From IMG/VR virus record IMGVR_UViG_3300025769_000240, positions 1 to 43,012 of that record: DNA of 43,012 bases. One strand, given 5' to 3'. Under the pieces are notes generated by a model, which saw only the letters and a program-made list of their open reading frames with translations, was not told the origin of the DNA and did not search any database. Numbering within the stretch: the stretch's first letter is position 1; the number at the start of each line of letters is the position of its first letter. This document shows positions 8,185 to 33,960 of the stretch, piece after piece. The stretch is from a virus. Position numbers and translations under genes: made by a program.

Positions 8185-8976
8185 TTATCCTATTTGTAAT
8201 TCATTCATTGCTTGTTCTTTATTAAAATATTTTAAATCGTCTCTAATTAATGCGATCCTACAATTCGTGTATACACTTAAAGTCTTTTGGATGTCAAATG
8301 ATTTCGCATAAGCATCTGGATCAAGTGCAACAATTAATGTCTCATATTGTTTTAAAATATCCATATAACTATCCAACAATGATGTTCCTAATAAAGCAAT
8401 GCCTGTACAAAAAGGTGCAACTGTAGTTGCTGATGTAGCATCTTCTACAATTACTCCTGTTGTGCCACTGCCGATTATAAAAGGGTGTGCAGCATTATCA
8501 TATCTATACCACTTAGGTTGTTGTTTAGAGTTCAATGCTCTACCCACTGCTCCTACTACTTCGTCTTCATGCACAATAGTAAATACTGCTCTATGCATTT
8601 TAACATCATAGTAAAATCTATCTTTATCTAATAAATAACCTTCTAAACAATTAAACTTCTCCAGGTAATTCATAGTTTCTTTAGAACGATTAGCTTCAAT
8701 GAAGTATTCTGGTAACACAAAAGGTAGCTTCTCATCATTTATGTCAAATGTATTTGACACAATTCGTGATAAGTCTTCTACACTTAGATCCTCTTCAGTA
8801 TTACCTTTAGCTTTACATGAAGCACTAAAACAATTCCACAATAAAAAACCCCTCCGTTTGGTTACCGAAAGGGTTTTAGTATGGCCACAGAAGATACAAT
8901 CTATTCTTTTGTTTGTACCTTCATCTAAATCTAGTTCTTTAATTCTTTCTAATTGATTATATAATCCATTTTGCAT
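8185..8976 (-). CDS. DNA primase (zinc-binding and Toprim)
   Basis: Makes RNA primers for replication. The 263-residue protein begins with a zinc-binding region C27-x2-C30-x18-C49-x4-C54 of the CHC2-like kind. It is followed by a linker and a Toprim fold: VIVEDA (E178) then LIVALDPDA (D219-x-D221), the acidic residues that bind metal. The ribosome site is weak (CAGATAG before the ATG), but no better start exists. Codons 75-80 contain the 18-bp palindrome described separately. The first gene of the replication block after the terminator/promoter region is a small ORF at 9051-9227; this primase follows. Confidence 0.9.
   Translation of the reverse strand: MQNGLYNQLERIKELDLDEGTNKRIDCIFCGHTKTLSVTKRRGFLLWNCFSASCKAKGNTEEDLSVEDLSRIVSNTFDINDEKLPFVLPEYFIEANRSKETMNYLEKFNCLEGYLLDKDRFYYDVKMHRAVFTIVHEDEVVGAVGRALNSKQQPKWYRYDNAAHPFIIGSGTTGVIVEDATSATTVAPFCTGIALLGTSLLDSYMDILKQYETLIVALDPDAYAKSFDIQKTLSVYTNCRIALIRDDLKYFNKEQAMNELQIG
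8742..8759. repeat. 18-bp palindrome, copy 1 (inside primase gene)
   Basis: TGTCAAATGTATTTGACA is an 8-bp perfect inverted repeat with a 2-base centre. The identical 18 bases occur again at 32130-32147 before the capsid gene; flanking bases differ. A third, degenerate copy (TGTCAAATGATTTCGCA) starts at 8292 in the same gene. This looks like a dimeric-protein operator, but the two sites could also be a recombination or processing signal. Confidence 0.6.
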
Positions 8977-10497: not shown

Positions 10498-12126
10498 TTA
10501 TACCTCCATGTTTTTTAGTATGTGTTCAATAACTCTTACAGTAAATCCATTGCCAAGCATTTTGTATCGTTGGGTATTTGATACTCCCTCAGTGTAGTTA
10601 TCTGGTACAGTTTGTAACCTCTCGCATTCTAATGGTGTAAGCTTACGCCAATGTAATTCATCAACACTATCCCACTCATGCCTGTCATAAGATAGTCTGC
10701 CACCAGATCTAACTGTTTTAGATTTATCTCTGATTTTACTTATCTGTATTGTATGTTGTTTAGAAGTATTAGCAGTTATGGTATTAGATTTATCATCTTT
10801 TCTTTCTACTAAATGTCTCATATGTCTAGGCGACCAATCCTTACCTGTCTTTTTCTTATGTTCTCGTCTTATCTTATTAGCTTCTGGTGTTCTCACCTCA
10901 GTCATAGATTTAACAGCAACTTTAGGTTCTCTGTTACCACCTCCCATTGAGTTAAGTGTAGGTGATTTACCATCCTCTGAATACACTCGCTTTAATATAT
11001 CATGGCCATTTATTTCTTTAGCAGTGCCAACTTGTTTCGGTGTATTGTAAGTTTCAATATATTGTTCTTTATTACTAGAAGTTAATGTAGGTGATTTACC
11101 ATTCTCTGAATAAACTCTTTGTTTAGTTTCATACACTCCATCCCTGTACTCAAACTCCATAATCTGTTTATCAAAGACATCAGTTTCAATACCTAATATA
11201 TCTTTAAGTTTAAACCAAATGTCATCACCAGGAATAGCGAAGCTAGTATCAGTTCTAAACCAATGCTCTACTTTAGTAACAGGCATATCAGTTTCTGTTG
11301 CTATCTGTTTATTTGTTTTTCCAGATTGTTCTTTCATAGACCTAAGTAAATATTGTAAACCTTTTATATCTACCTCATGCTTTCTAACTTTCACTTCTTC
11401 TACATTCATTCCTACTTTTTTAGGTGTGTTATAAGTTTCCAAAGGCACTAGTGTCATACCATTGTTGCCTGCACCTTTATACATAATAGCCGTACAAGTT
11501 AAAGATTTTTCATCAGGAAATTTAGTATGTTTTAAATTTCTTTCTGTATTCTTAGTTGGTTTTTCATTAGTATCTACTTCCAACACATCTCTCAATACAA
11601 TACCAAGATCTTTAGGCTGTTCAATTCCTGGTATGTTGGTCCAATACAATCTGTTTCTATTCTGTGCCGAAAGTAATGCAGAGTTAATCAGAATAGGCTC
11701 GATACCAAATAACCCACCACTTGTATACTCAGGGTATATGTTAGATACTTGTTCTGATATTACAGCTTGAAACTCTTTCTTCATACGAACATTCTCAAGC
11801 AAGAAGTATTTAGGTTTAACTTCTTTTAATATTCTAACAAACTCAAAGAACAATGCAGACCTAGGATCATCGAATGCTAATTGCTTACCTGCAAAACTAA
11901 ATCCTTGGCAAGGGCTACCTGCAACAATTAAATCAATCTCAGGTAAATCTTTACCTTTAATATCCTTAACATCTCCAAGTTGTATAGTATCTGGAAAATT
12001 CTTTTGTGCTATTTGTATTCCATATTTGTCTATCTCACTTGCATAATAAGTATCAACCTTGATACCTAAGTTCTTTAATGCAATTTGAGTACATGACATT
12101 CCGTCAAATAAACTAAGTACTTTCAT
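10498..12126 (-). CDS. DNA cytosine-5 methyltransferase with a long recognition region containing an HTH-like insert
   Basis: Adds a methyl group to cytosine C5, probably protecting phage DNA from restriction. Of 542 residues, the N-terminal part has motif I (LSLFDGMSC), the catalytic PCQ loop (GSPCQGFSF, Cys73), ENV near 112 and QNRNR near 157. The C-terminal LGNGF near 525 closes the fold. Between them lies a recognition region of about 320 residues, far longer than usual. It contains a helix-turn-helix-like stretch (about 252-315), two copies of RVYSE-(N/D)-GKSPTL (338 and 380) and repeated YNTPK-(K/Q)-VG. I chose the ATG at 12126 (GGAGAG upstream) over the GTG three bases earlier. No cognate restriction enzyme is seen, so it is an orphan enzyme here. 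Confidence 0.92.
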   Translation of the reverse strand: MKVLSLFDGMSCTQIALKNLGIKVDTYYASEIDKYGIQIAQKNFPDTIQLGDVKDIKGKDLPEIDLIVAGSPCQGFSFAGKQLAFDDPRSALFFEFVRILKEVKPKYFLLENVRMKKEFQAVISEQVSNIYPEYTSGGLFGIEPILINSALLSAQNRNRLYWTNIPGIEQPKDLGIVLRDVLEVDTNEKPTKNTERNLKHTKFPDEKSLTCTAIMYKGAGNNGMTLVPLETYNTPKKVGMNVEEVKVRKHEVDIKGLQYLLRSMKEQSGKTNKQIATETDMPVTKVEHWFRTDTSFAIPGDDIWFKLKDILGIETDVFDKQIMEFEYRDGVYETKQRVYSENGKSPTLTSSNKEQYIETYNTPKQVGTAKEINGHDILKRVYSEDGKSPTLNSMGGGNREPKVAVKSMTEVRTPEANKIRREHKKKTGKDWSPRHMRHLVERKDDKSNTITANTSKQHTIQISKIRDKSKTVRSGGRLSYDRHEWDSVDELHWRKLTPLECERLQTVPDNYTEGVSNTQRYKMLGNGFTVRVIEHILKNMEV

Positions 12127-12135
12127 CACTCTCTC

Positions 12136-18309: not shown

Positions 18310-18846
18310 ATGACGAATGGGAAAGCTGAGTATTTAAAGAATTGGCATAAGAAAAGAATGAATGCTGATCCTATTGAATACAAATTAGATACAATGTTGA
18401 GGGGTGCTAAGAATAGAGCACGAACTAAGAGACTTAGGTTTAATCTGCATATAGACTATGTGAGAACTATAGCCAAAGAATACTGTCCCTACTTTCCAGA
18501 GATTAAATTAGCTTATAAGACTGATAAAAGAAAAGGTTGGAATCTAAGCTCACCATCCCTGGATAGAATAATACCTGAAAAAGGTTATGTTGAGGGTAAT
18601 GTAGAGATTATATCTATGAAAGCTAACTTAATTAAATCAAGTGCAGCATCAATAGATCTCTATAGAGTGGCTGATAGGTTATATGAGTTTGAAAGGGATA
18701 ATGAAGTGCTGTCCATCTTACCTAGTGAATCACTAGATGAATATAAACAGAGGGTAGGGTATTATAACCCCACCAACTTAGTTGGATACAGTTATACACG
18801 GTTTCTCAGATTTGTCAACAACAAAATTTTAAGGGGTTTGAAATGA
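18310..18846 (+). CDS. HNH-fold endonuclease-like protein, first rightward gene
   Basis: The frame is open from ATG 18283, but that lies inside the promoter spacer, so I take the ATG at 18310 (178 aa). No ribosome site precedes it, and translation may be leaderless. The core S-LDRI-x4-KGYVEGNVEIIS-x2-ANLIKSS (about residues 88-118) is the pattern of a family of small phage proteins related to HNH nucleases. The N-terminal half is basic (KKRMNADPIEYKLD...NRARTKRLRF). A classical His-Asn-His triad is not obvious, so catalysis is uncertain. It overlaps the next gene as ATGA. Confidence 0.6.
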   Translation: MTNGKAEYLKNWHKKRMNADPIEYKLDTMLRGAKNRARTKRLRFNLHIDYVRTIAKEYCPYFPEIKLAYKTDKRKGWNLSSPSLDRIIPEKGYVEGNVEIISMKANLIKSSAASIDLYRVADRLYEFERDNEVLSILPSESLDEYKQRVGYYNPTNLVGYSYTRFLRFVNNKILRGLK

Positions 18847-31187: not shown

Positions 31188-32060
31188 ATGTCAGAAGAAG
31201 TACAAGTAAAAAAAGATGAAGCCACAGGCGATACAATTATGAAAAAGCCTGTAAGGTACAAAAGAGCAGAACCAACTATGCAAGAGTTAGCTGCTGAAGA
31301 AGAATTAAAAGCAAGAGAAGGTTCTACAGAAGAAACAACTGAAGAAACTACAGAAGAACCTGCTAATGCTGAAGAAGCATCATTTAAAAAAAGATATGGT
31401 GATTTAAGAAGACATGCTCAAAAAGTTGCAGATGAAAAAGATGCAGAGCTTGAAAAAGTTAAAAAACAGTTAGCAGAAGCTACTAAGAAACAAATAAAGC
31501 TTCCTAAAACAGATGAAGAACTAGAAGCATGGTCTGCTGAATATCCGGATGTAGCAAGAATAATAGAAACTATTGCTATTAAAAAATCAAAAGAAATGAA
31601 TGCATCTATTGAAGAACGATTAGAATCTATTGCTGTAAAAGAACAAAAGTCAGCAAAACAAATAGCAGAAGCAGAGCTATTAAGATTACATCCTGATTTT
31701 GAAGACATTAGAAATGATGTTAAATTTCATGATTGGGCTGAAGAACAACCTGAGTATATTCAAAAAGCTTTATACGATAACGAAACAGATGCTAAAGCTG
31801 CATCTCGTGCTATTGATTTATATAAAGCAGATATGGGTATTACAGGTAAGAAAAAAGCAAAGTCTACAGATGCTGCAAAAGCAGTAAAAACAAAAGGTGG
31901 TTCTACCCCTTCAGACACTGCTAGTTCTTCAGATATCATAAAAGAGTCTGATGTTGCAAGAATGACATCACAAGAATATTCAGCAAATGAAGAAGCTATT
32001 GCTAATGCAATACGTTCTGGAAACTTTGAATATGATGTTAGTGGAGCAGCTAGACAGTAA
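31188..32060 (+). CDS. Capsid scaffolding protein
   Basis: Guides capsid assembly and is later lost. The 290-residue protein is highly charged and helical. An acidic Glu/Thr-rich region (about 40-70, TEETTEETTEEPANAEE) precedes a long coiled coil (FKKRYGDLRRHAQKVADEKDAELEKVKKQLAEATKKQ). A C-terminal low-complexity linker and a short end (SANEEAIANAIRSGNFEYD) would contact the capsid protein. Position right before the capsid gene fits. Confidence 0.85.
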   Translation: MSEEVQVKKDEATGDTIMKKPVRYKRAEPTMQELAAEEELKAREGSTEETTEETTEEPANAEEASFKKRYGDLRRHAQKVADEKDAELEKVKKQLAEATKKQIKLPKTDEELEAWSAEYPDVARIIETIAIKKSKEMNASIEERLESIAVKEQKSAKQIAEAELLRLHPDFEDIRNDVKFHDWAEEQPEYIQKALYDNETDAKAASRAIDLYKADMGITGKKKAKSTDAAKAVKTKGGSTPSDTASSSDIIKESDVARMTSQEYSANEEAIANAIRSGNFEYDVSGAARQ

Positions 32061-32061
32061 T

Positions 32062-32086
32062 AATAGGTTGACAAAACCTATTTTTT
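32062..32086 (+). terminator. Rho-independent terminator between scaffold and capsid genes
   Basis: AATAGGTT (32062-32069), a 5-base loop and AACCTATT (32075-32082), running into six T. It follows the scaffold stop by one base. Its loop side also spells TTGACA (32068-32073), which with TATGTA 16 bases later could be the -35/-10 of a weak capsid promoter, so terminator and promoter would overlap. Confidence 0.75.
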
Positions 32087-32120
32087 GTATATGTATGTAA
32101 CATATACTACAATCGTAGTA
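32087..32120 (+). repeat. Two overlapping inverted repeats before the capsid gene
   Basis: GTATATG (32087-32093) with CATATAC (32101-32107), and TACTAC (32105-32110) with GTAGTA (32115-32120). They share bases and so exclude each other as stems. Either could be a binding site or an RNA switch. Confidence 0.4.
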
Positions 32121-32129
32121 GGCCGAAAG

Positions 32130-32147
32130 TGTCAAATGTATTTGACA
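32130..32147. repeat. 18-bp palindrome, copy 2 (capsid leader)
   Basis: TGTCAAATGTATTTGACA, base-for-base identical to 8742-8759 and in the same orientation. It lies 145 bases before the capsid ATG, in non-coding DNA, where an operator or processing signal is plausible. Confidence 0.65.
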
Positions 32148-32169
32148 TCTATCCCACCCTACACTTACC

Positions 32170-32261
32170 AAACGAAATTCACTCAGGCTACCTGATGTTA
32201 TGGCCTCTAGGCATAGACACCCATTTTCAGCATCAGCCCTTACGAAGTGAGGTTATCGTTT
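32170..32261 (+). ncRNA. Folded leader RNA before the capsid gene
   Basis: Complementary blocks nest around one axis: AAACGA (32170-32175) with TCGTTT (32256-32261), TCACT (32179-32183) with AGTGA (32246-32250), and CTGATG (32192-32197) with CATCAG (32231-32236). A small hairpin lies inside (ATGGCCTCTAGGCAT, 32200-32214). The capsid ribosome site starts 18 bases after the outer stem. The fold is read by eye; it could act in mRNA stability or translation, or be a separate small RNA. Confidence 0.5.
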
Positions 32262-32292
32262 GTTGGCCTCTAATATAAAAAGGAGAAAACAG

Positions 32293-33366
32293 ATGGCTTT
32301 TAAAGTAGCGTCAGGTTATACTAACCTACCTAATGGTAATTTCTCTCCAGTTATTTACAGTCAAAAGGTTCAACAAGCTTTTCGTAAGAGTTCCGTTGCT
32401 GAATCTATTACTAACAATGACTACTTTGGAGAAATTGCAAACTTTGGTGATACAGTTCGTATTATTAAAGAGCCAGAAATAACAGTGAAAGCTTATTCTC
32501 GTGGTACTACAGTCACACCGCAAGACTTAGACGATGAGGATTTCAGCCTAGTTGTTGATCAGGCAAACTACTTTGCTTTTAAAATGGATGATATTGAGGA
32601 AGCTCACTCTCATGTTAATTTTGAAAGCATGGCATCAGATAGAGCAGGCTATAGACTTCGTGATCAATACGATCAAGAAGTTCTTGGTTACCTATCTGGT
32701 TTTAAACAATCAGCTTTAAGTTCAGTTGCTGATACTGCTAATGACACAGTATCAGGCACTAAAGCTGTAAGCACAGCAGGAAGTAATGAATTATTATCCT
32801 CAATGATCTTGAAAAAAGGTGATTTTGGTAACATTACAACTGGTTCAGCAGGCGATCATTCTATCCCTCTAGCAGTAAGAATGCCTGGAGCAACAGCAGC
32901 AGCGACAGCTACTGCAACACCGCTTCAAGTAGTAGCTAGAATGGCTAGATTGTTGAATCAACAACAAGTTGATACAGCAGGTCGTTGGCTAGTAGTTGAT
33001 CCTGTATTCATGGAACTATTATCAGATGAAGATTCTAGACTATTAAACAATGACACCGCAGATAAAGGTGGACTTGTAAATGGTATTTCAATCGGTAATC
33101 TACATGGTTTCGATGTATATGTTTCTAGTAACTTACCTTCAGTTGGTACTGGTTCTGCAACCTCTGGTTCAGCTAACCAAAATACTAACTATGGTCTTAT
33201 TGTTGCAGGACATAGTTCAGCAGTAGCAACTGCTTCTCAGATCAATAAAGTTGAATCTTACCGTGATCCTGAATCATTCGCTGACATAGTCAGAGGAATG
33301 CAGATGTACGGAAGAAAAATCCTAAGACCTGAAGGCATTGTGACAGCTAAATATAACGCAGCGTAA
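32293..33366 (+). CDS. Major capsid protein
   Basis: A 357-residue shell protein in the expected place after scaffold. I take the ATG at 32293 with AAAAAGGAGAAAACAG before it; the frame is open further back only with TTG. The body has features of HK97-fold podoviral capsids: VIYSQKVQQAFRKSSVAESITNNDYFGEIANFGDTVRI at the N-terminal region, MDDIEEAHSHVNF, and WLVVDPVFMELLSDEDSRLLN near the P-domain. G+C and codon use look more balanced than in the early genes, as in highly expressed genes. Confidence 0.88.
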   Translation: MAFKVASGYTNLPNGNFSPVIYSQKVQQAFRKSSVAESITNNDYFGEIANFGDTVRIIKEPEITVKAYSRGTTVTPQDLDDEDFSLVVDQANYFAFKMDDIEEAHSHVNFESMASDRAGYRLRDQYDQEVLGYLSGFKQSALSSVADTANDTVSGTKAVSTAGSNELLSSMILKKGDFGNITTGSAGDHSIPLAVRMPGATAAATATATPLQVVARMARLLNQQQVDTAGRWLVVDPVFMELLSDEDSRLLNNDTADKGGLVNGISIGNLHGFDVYVSSNLPSVGTGSATSGSANQNTNYGLIVAGHSSAVATASQINKVESYRDPESFADIVRGMQMYGRKILRPEGIVTAKYNAA

Positions 33367-33378
33367 GGGAGATAAAAC

Positions 33379-33912
33379 ATGGCAACTTATGATTTAACAG
33401 CTAAATCCACTACAGGCGTTAGTTCTGACTCAACAGCAACTCTACCAGGTAATCGTAGAGGAGCATATGTAATTGAAAAAGAGTTAGACGTTGCTAAACT
33501 AGTATCAGAAGGAACATTTTCTAATGTTGCTAGTGGCGATATTTTTCAATTACTAGAAGTTCCTGCTAATACTATTGTTATTGCGGCAGGTGCTGAAGTT
33601 ACTACAGCTTTTACAGGTGGCTCTGCCACTGCTGATATTGACTTTGCAGCAGGCGATGACATTGTAGACGGTGGTGATTTATCATCAACTGGCTACCTTG
33701 CAGCAGGCACTAATGGTCAAGCTAATATTGTGAACACAGGAGCAGCAAATACTTATACAGCTTTAATATCTACAGCAGATACTATTGATGTAAAAATTGC
33801 AGCAACTGATACAGCATGCGTTAGTGGCGTACTTAGAGTTTATGCAGTCCTAGCTGACATTTCTTCTCAACAAACAGGAAGAACTGTAGCAGATAGAGAT
33901 CTATTAGCATAA
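33379..33912 (+). CDS. Probable capsid decoration/stabilising protein
   Basis: A 177-residue Ala/Thr/Ser/Asp-rich protein of beta type (IFQLLEVPANTIVIAAGAEVTTAFTGGSATADIDFAAGDDIVDGG...). This pattern is common for small virion proteins encoded right after the capsid gene in marine podoviruses. GGGAGATAAAAC precedes the start. Function as decoration is inferred from place and composition. Confidence 0.65.
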   Translation: MATYDLTAKSTTGVSSDSTATLPGNRRGAYVIEKELDVAKLVSEGTFSNVASGDIFQLLEVPANTIVIAAGAEVTTAFTGGSATADIDFAAGDDIVDGGDLSSTGYLAAGTNGQANIVNTGAANTYTALISTADTIDVKIAATDTACVSGVLRVYAVLADISSQQTGRTVADRDLLA

Positions 33913-33925
33913 ATATTTTTCTAGG

Positions 33926-33960
33926 AGTAGGAGGGATAAGTATTTCTTGTCCTTCCTACT
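33926..33960 (+). terminator. 15-bp hairpin between head and tail genes
   Basis: AGTAGGAGGGATAAG (33926-33940) and CTTGTCCTTCCTACT (33946-33960) pair over 15 bp (two G-U wobbles) around the loop TATTT, followed by ATTTATTATATGG. The tail is only moderately T-rich and holds the next start codon 9 bases later, so it may be an attenuator, an RNase III site or a translation gate instead of a full terminator. The only good ribosome-site sequence (AGGAGG, 33929-33934) is buried in the stem. Confidence 0.68.

Follow-up and report, generated by a model that had tools for sequence, protein, structure and literature searches.

Structured mRNA leaders are already known. The leader of gene 10 of phage T7 is short, is served by the phage polymerase, is trimmed by RNase III and is thought to raise expression. 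The HK022 put RNA and the Bacillus EAR element are structured RNAs located just after a promoter. The dimer initiation site of retroviruses acts through kissing loops, and phi29 pRNA, GOLLD and ROOL are phage-associated structured RNAs with loops able to join copies. Comparative work revealed the manA and wcaG RNAs, two structured elements in the 5' UTRs of marine phage genes (Weinberg 2010, PMC2864571). HMO-2011-type phages constitute a dominant, broadly distributed marine viral group (PMC9038755). The locus described here was found in a stretch of 43,012 nucleotides from such a phage (IMG/VR virus record IMGVR_UViG_3300025769_000240, positions 1 to 43,012; hereafter the window), in which the capsid gene is preceded by an untranslated leader. 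In these phages, a conserved promoter-like element is followed by a sense-strand RNA with a fold under selection, and this RNA occurs once per genome and only 5' of the capsid gene.

What distinguishes the capsid leader from the systems above? Its architecture appears to be new. Like the T7 gene 10 leader, it precedes the most abundant virion protein, but it has an elaborate conserved arm, repeated C-rich loops and a putative sigma70-type promoter. Like put and EAR, it is a structured RNA just after a (putative) promoter, whereas it is a single capsid-specific site per genome, and a role in antitermination would be hypothetical. The apical loops of its relatives, of about 6 nt, resemble the retroviral dimer initiation site in that a palindrome of 4–6 nt is kept through sequence change; here, however, the RNA is the mRNA of a dsDNA phage, the dimer is a prediction, and the window is without the long arm. 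Unlike phi29 pRNA, GOLLD and ROOL, the leader is strictly in cis, lies 5' of the capsid gene and has no Rfam match, and it is much smaller than GOLLD and ROOL. The manA and wcaG RNAs, in contrast, stand on metabolic and exopolysaccharide genes, and the capsid leader showed no sequence or structure match to them by cmscan.

Searches of Rfam 15 at the gathering score gave 0 matches in the window and 20 relatives, and permissive scans gave hits at chance level only. The families of a 2017 survey (224 candidate RNAs), carried out by the same group as the 2010 survey of structured RNAs, are presumably included in Rfam 15. The 2010 survey itself (PMC2864571) contains no capsid motif, and the main genome paper on HMO-2011-type phages was searched and does not mention promoter, intergenic or non-coding features. 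No paper describing the element was found in a literature search that covered few subscription papers. A preliminary description of the window had proposed an undescribed structured RNA at this position, and this proposal is borne out by strong covariation in related leaders, by the lack of an Rfam family and by the occurrence of the core only 5' of the capsid gene.

The capsid locus and its leader among relatives

The major capsid protein gene (32293–33366, + strand, ATG at 32293; Pfam Phage_capsid_4, E 1e-7) encodes a protein that shares 70–72% identity with its counterparts, the coat proteins of CRP-1 (a Roseobacter phage) and HMO-2011 (a Puniceispirillum phage); the window was therefore assigned to an HMO-2011-type podovirus. 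The capsid gene has a Shine-Dalgarno sequence AAGGAG (32280–32285, + strand, read from the sequence) and is separated from the gene in the scaffold position (31188–32060) by a gap of 232 nt (32061–32292). It is followed by a small gene (33379–33912, + strand), predicted as an ORF, whose product is probably a decoration or head protein as judged from position only, and for which a Pfam search found no family. An intrinsic terminator-like hairpin with a 15-pair stem and a T run (33926–33960, + strand) lies at the apparent end of the capsid transcription unit. Terminator-like sites, lying at a median of 518 nt past the capsid stop, were also observed 3' of the capsid unit in 61 of 231 relatives; among control stretches, 9 of 280 had such a site. 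These sites, in the window and in relatives, suggest a dedicated capsid transcription unit. The late genes had been described as tightly packed with two exceptions. This holds for the neighbouring gaps, which are small, and the exceptions measure about 70 nt (5' of the scaffold-position gene) and 57 nt (after 33379–33912). Elsewhere in the window, an ORF on the − strand (10498–12129) resembles, as judged from its translation, a cytosine-5 DNA methyltransferase with a long insert.

The leader was compared across 80 capsid-encoding IMG/VR contigs and annotated isolates. An untranslated stretch 5' of the capsid start, usually of 190–330 nt, was found wherever the contig reaches far enough, and a leader of 155–330 nt is present in almost every relative that was studied, whether a marine contig or Sinorhizobium phage phiM6. 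Among the annotated HMO-2011-type and rhizobial records, the shortest leaders are those of RHph_N3_13 (155 nt) and Manatee Spring phage (MW202701.1; 116 nt). In the latter, an ORF for a PacI-like HNH endonuclease lies at 1815–2384, between the scaffold-position and capsid genes, and the remaining 116-nt leader still fits the core model described below with 43.9 bits. The leader of CRP-13 (2172–2500) is 328 nt long; an additional 70 nt or so separate its core from the ribosome site, a stretch that in others totals about 59 nt. Homologues without a leader, named in the preliminary description as an observation that would tell against its proposal, were found only in distant form, in the Pelagibacter phages HTVC115P (58-nt gap) and HTVC033P (31 nt), with capsid identity of about 40%. 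A megablast search of the leader region against phage records gave no match, and comparison of proteins and structures was therefore needed. In bacterial genomes, the only capsid relatives found were phage contigs binned into MAGs.

A conserved RNA fold 5' of the capsid gene

The conserved core of the leader occupies 32185–32241 (+ strand) in the window, where a descriptor parse and a covariance model place AGG-CUAC-CUGAUG-UU-AUGG-CC-UCUA-GGCA-UAGA-CAC-CCAU-...-CAUCAG-CC-CUU. Its repeating unit is a module of two helices separated by an asymmetric C-rich internal loop, in which CC stands opposite (C)UAC or CAC. The core is a single arm with two such modules in opposite orientation, in the order T3'-CUAC-S3'-junction-S2-CC-T2 ... 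T2'-CAC-S2'-junction-S3-CC-T3. In the window, loop 3 is formed by 32188–32191 with 32237–32238 and loop 2 by 32204–32205 with 32218–32220 (both + strand). Across 173 leaders, with few exceptions, the loops stand 12–15 nt apart on the 5' strand side and 13–17 nt apart on the 3' side, and the way in which this near-fixed spacing is divided among S3, junction and S2 varies. The end of the core lies at a median of 59 nt from the capsid ATG. A further copy of the loop motif is often present in an upstream hairpin (P1). Soil relatives of Sinorhizobium phage phiM6 share the layout of the core with entirely different helix sequences.

The repeated CC/CUAC internal loop, overlooked in the preliminary description, is the real signature of the leader. 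A descriptor search found 117 loop motifs in 74 distinct leaders, against a mean of about 10 in dinucleotide shuffles and 4 on the reverse complement; the descriptor was drawn up by eye from the same leaders, and the parse rates are therefore descriptive. This strand bias indicates that RNA, not DNA, is conserved. Within the 43-kb window, the maximum of three loop motifs was reached only by tiles over the capsid leader.

The fold was also recovered without the window. RNAalifold, given a plain MAFFT alignment of 26 leaders from which the window and its clade had been left out, predicted the core unprompted, with 16 pairs, 13 of which show two-sided changes. For the core pairs, 85.6% of alignment cells are paired, compared with 68.9% after shuffling, and the covariation score is 0.454, compared with 0.174 for shuffled and 0.05–0.10 for slid controls. 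When 94 sources were searched with a covariance model built from this alignment, 75 matches were obtained, of which only one was not on the sense strand in a capsid leader. Among 60 distinct leaders aligned by covariance model, two-sided changes were found in 22 of 23 pairs and the covariation score was 0.533 against 0.170, in an alignment that is fitted to the structure and hence biased toward it. All of these statistics, being based on shuffles, are inflated by shared ancestry, but ancestry is unlikely to explain everything, to judge from the slid control and from the distinct helices of the soil phages. Compensatory changes, whose absence had been named beforehand as evidence against a structured leader, are present beyond both the shuffled and the slid controls. 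With filters off on 501 nt, the covariance model (R1), for which neither the window nor its clade had been used, placed the core of the window at 32182–32244 (23.9 bits, E 3.8e-6) and also matched the P1 hairpin weakly. The search with default filters missed the core of the window, the inner arm of which is short.

The position of the core was examined by a scan blind to the capsid gene, in which a DNA pattern derived from the core was run against 2.9 million IMG/VR viral contigs. In the fetched loci, all 153 occurrences with a capsid gene in view lie on the same strand as this gene, 100–220 nt upstream of its start, and the sole other occurrence is 77 nt from a contig end. Whole isolate genomes each contain a single clear copy of the core. 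This constant strand and position relative to one gene, together with the single copy, identify the core as a cis element of the capsid gene.

Elements of the leader in the window

Inspection of the sequence located every element that the preliminary description had listed within 32061–32292. The whole leader folds at −60.2 kcal/mol (z −4.0), a value reached by none of 200 dinucleotide shuffles, which gave −42.9 ± 4.3. At its 5' end, a terminator-like hairpin followed by a T run (32062–32086, + strand; AATAGGTT-GACAA-AACCTATT, then TTTT) folds alone at −7.6 kcal/mol (z −4.27) and contains the TTGACA of the candidate promoter. The reported terminator is thus real as a hairpin of the window, but it is lineage-specific: sister leaders of the L004 type retain TTGACA without the hairpin, and the hairpin was rejected as a conserved part of the leader.

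The promoter-like element comprises the −35 box TTGACA (32068–32073, + strand), which is invariant in the window's clade, and a degenerate candidate −10 box TATGTA (32090–32095, + strand), which has three of six consensus letters and was located from the spacing of 16 nt seen in relatives. In 53 of 74 leaders, TATAAC or TATAAT stands exactly 16 nt after TTGACA or a near form of it, and in one more the spacing is 17 nt. Most relatives have TATAAC where the window's clade, which retains TTGACA, has the degraded TATGTA at the same spacing of 16. We infer the promoter, its start site and the status of the RNA as the 5' end of the capsid mRNA. Three more TTGACA-N16-TATAAC sites were observed in the window, at 18818, 9054 and 4020 (− strand), one of which precedes the start of the primase gene by about 78 nt. 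Their spacing is that of the capsid leaders of relatives, and they probably represent a phage-wide promoter class.

The inverted repeat a:b (GTATATGT/ACATATAC; 32087–32107, + strand) overlaps the candidate −10 box, and strand a would therefore be present only in read-through transcripts. Its complementarity is retained despite altered letters in two sub-lineages (TGTGTAT/ATACACA). A small inverted repeat, P0 (CTAC/GTAG; 32107–32118, + strand), overlaps both a:b and P1 and is retained as TACTAC/GTAGTA or TACAC/GTGTA in most of 13 clade variants. The overlapping and mutually exclusive 5' repeats of the preliminary description do persist: in both sub-lineages of the clade, the strands are complementary as a:b, b:c and c:d with different letters.

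The hairpin P1 (32119–32161, + strand), with its apical helix at 32130–32147, contains the loop motif once (as UAGG-CC-GA ... UC-CCAC-CCUA) and folds alone as drawn. Two forms of P1 exist in the clade, one with UAGG/CCUA and one with UAGA/UCUA, and they differ in their apical helix; three of its pairs show two-sided changes among 13 sequences. The top of P1 is an 18-mer, TGTCAAATGTATTTGACA (32130–32147), which has one other exact copy at 8742–8759, in the primase gene on the − strand; counting both strands, there are 4 matches, compared with 0.13 expected. Among leaders with the 18-mer, its arms do not change and its 4-nt centre varies (TGTA, TACG, TACA, CGTA), a pattern that makes a DNA operator possible.

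The three nested tiers of complementary blocks reported earlier are present as an arm at 32169–32262 (+ strand), ending 17 bases before AAGGAG (32280–32285). Tier 1 pairs CAAACGA with TCGTTTG (32169–32175 with 32256–32262, + strand), tier 2 pairs TTCAC with GTGAG (32178–32182 with 32247–32251, + strand), and tier 3, which is the conserved core, pairs CTGATG with CATCAG. In the alignment of the window's clade (13 distinct leaders), 97.4% of cells are paired over all helices of P0, P1 and the three tiers, and RNAalifold predicted the same tiers. The two-sided changes of the clade lie in P1 and T2. Since variation in the clade is limited, tiers 1 and 2 are supported mostly by persistence and wobble changes.

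Possible functions of the leader

We lean, if only slightly, towards reading the interval as the promoter and structured 5' leader of an HMO-2011-type capsid mRNA that sets capsid yield. The promoter, the leader, the capsid gene and the next small gene would form a high-output unit ending at the terminator at 33926–33960. The C-rich loops may give rise to a compact tertiary fold or to a platform for protein binding, and the leader would determine how much capsid protein is made, either because it protects the mRNA, because it keeps the start site productive, or both. The suggestion in the preliminary description that the leader boosts or times capsid expression is plausible. Such stabilisation or support of translation was ranked first because demand is greatest for the capsid protein and because a search for conserved occlusion of the ribosome site found none. 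Counted against this reading are the weak −10 box of the window, a slightly lower predicted accessibility of the ribosome site, and the distant Pelagibacter relatives that have no leader.

A translational operator was ranked next because the invariant loops, their opposite orientation and their fixed spacing resemble a binding site. Here, the inverted loops would be the target of an RNA-binding protein from phage or host, probably a dimer, that throttles or times capsid translation, as in autoregulation by coat or scaffold protein or in the manner of ribosomal proteins. The layout expected of a symmetric binder, two opposed copies at fixed spacing with invariant loop letters and variable helices, is indeed present, and the leader is restricted to the most highly needed structural gene. 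However, the core does not cover the start codon, from which it is separated by about 59 nt, and pairing between core and Shine-Dalgarno sequence is not conserved; overall, an operator seems unlikely, though well worth considering. The preliminary description had also named a switch. On this view, mutually exclusive pairings of a riboswitch-like or attenuator-like RNA would alter capsid expression with the stage of infection. This idea retains the alternative pairings of strands a, b, c and d, which are kept in both sub-lineages with changed letters, and any switch formed by them would be local. In the RNAalifold prediction for CRP-type leaders, moreover, GGAGG at the ribosome site is paired with CCUCU from the core, but these pairs never vary, and sequestration of the ribosome site by the core was rejected, as its complementarity (11.49) is no better than that of swapped leaders (11.36 ± 0.11). 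The long-range AGGCC/GGCCU pairing preferred by the single-sequence fold was likewise rejected, since it shows no covariation and is broken in half of the clade. Opening of the ribosome site by the leader was rejected as well: predicted accessibility in relatives is slightly lower, at 0.20 compared with 0.27 for shuffled upstream sequence (p 0.018). Nor is there a conserved leader peptide: the longest ORFs have a median of 20 codons, compared with 21.5 in shuffled sequence, and are not common to sister leaders, which have either a cut version of the window's 49-codon GTG ORF or none at all. A search for the expression platform of a riboswitch revealed no conserved terminator-like hairpin and no pairing to the ribosome site beyond that of swapped leaders; as for a ligand pocket, the loop letters are conserved, and neither a ligand nor a metabolic gene is implied. 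A switch is accordingly regarded as quite improbable.

Antitermination of the put or EAR kind, in which the nascent leader would modify RNA polymerase to read past the post-capsid terminators into the tail genes, appears a little less probable again. A strongly structured RNA right after the putative promoter and terminator-like sites downstream would suit it, whereas the element stands at one gene only, 170 of 231 relatives have no terminator by the rule used, and the put sites of lambdoid phages act at early promoters, unlike a capsid-only leader. The palindromic apical loops of most relatives could drive the assembly of oligomers, as expected of a trans-acting or packaging RNA of the pRNA kind processed from the capsid mRNA. 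The element is, however, always on the sense strand immediately 5' of the capsid gene and absent elsewhere in the genomes, and relatives without a leader still package their DNA; we therefore consider this very unlikely. An AT-rich spacer with chance hairpins, or with operators acting only as DNA, would accommodate the second copy of the 18-mer palindrome in the primase gene and the overlap of hairpin and −10 box, which could act on DNA. It is contradicted by covariation, that is, by compensatory changes around fixed loop letters, and by the strand-specific motif and conserved spacing, so that the absence of a functional RNA has a barely appreciable probability.

A conserved folded RNA 5' of the capsid gene would mean control of capsid output at the RNA level in very common ocean viruses, and the leader adds a recurrent internal-loop module for work on RNA structure. 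Since phiM6 grows on Sinorhizobium meliloti 1021, the leader offers an assayable system.

The apical loops raise a further question, that of RNA–RNA pairing between phage messages. Most relatives have a long T2 arm with an apical loop containing a four-letter palindrome (GGCC, GCGC, GATC, AGCT, CTAG or GTAC), as found in 117 of 135 distinct arms. Examples are HMO-2011, CRP-9 and CRP-1; exceptions among relatives are UGGCAA and a few others. When loop letters were shuffled, a mean of 11.8 and a maximum of 22 palindromic loops were obtained, compared with 32 of 44 distinct apical loops observed. Palindromes containing A and U often extend to six letters (UGAUCA, UAGCUA, UCUAGA, UGUACA). The window (loop GGCA) and most rhizobial phages have a short arm without a palindrome, so that an apical loop kept self-complementary across sequence change, as expected of kissing loops, is found in relatives and not in the window. 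The simplest reading of the palindromic loops suggests that identical loops could pair, giving a kissing dimer of two leaders. As a tentative and rather doubtful extension, most HMO-2011-type capsid leaders might self-dimerise through these loops, with the inverted C-rich loops as a docking platform; the paired capsid mRNAs would concentrate or control synthesis, and the window's lineage would have lost the arm. By parsimony, the palindrome class changed 42 times on the capsid tree, 15 of these changes being to or from 'none', which leaves at least about 27 exchanges of one palindrome for another; exchange of arms by recombination may be part of this turnover.
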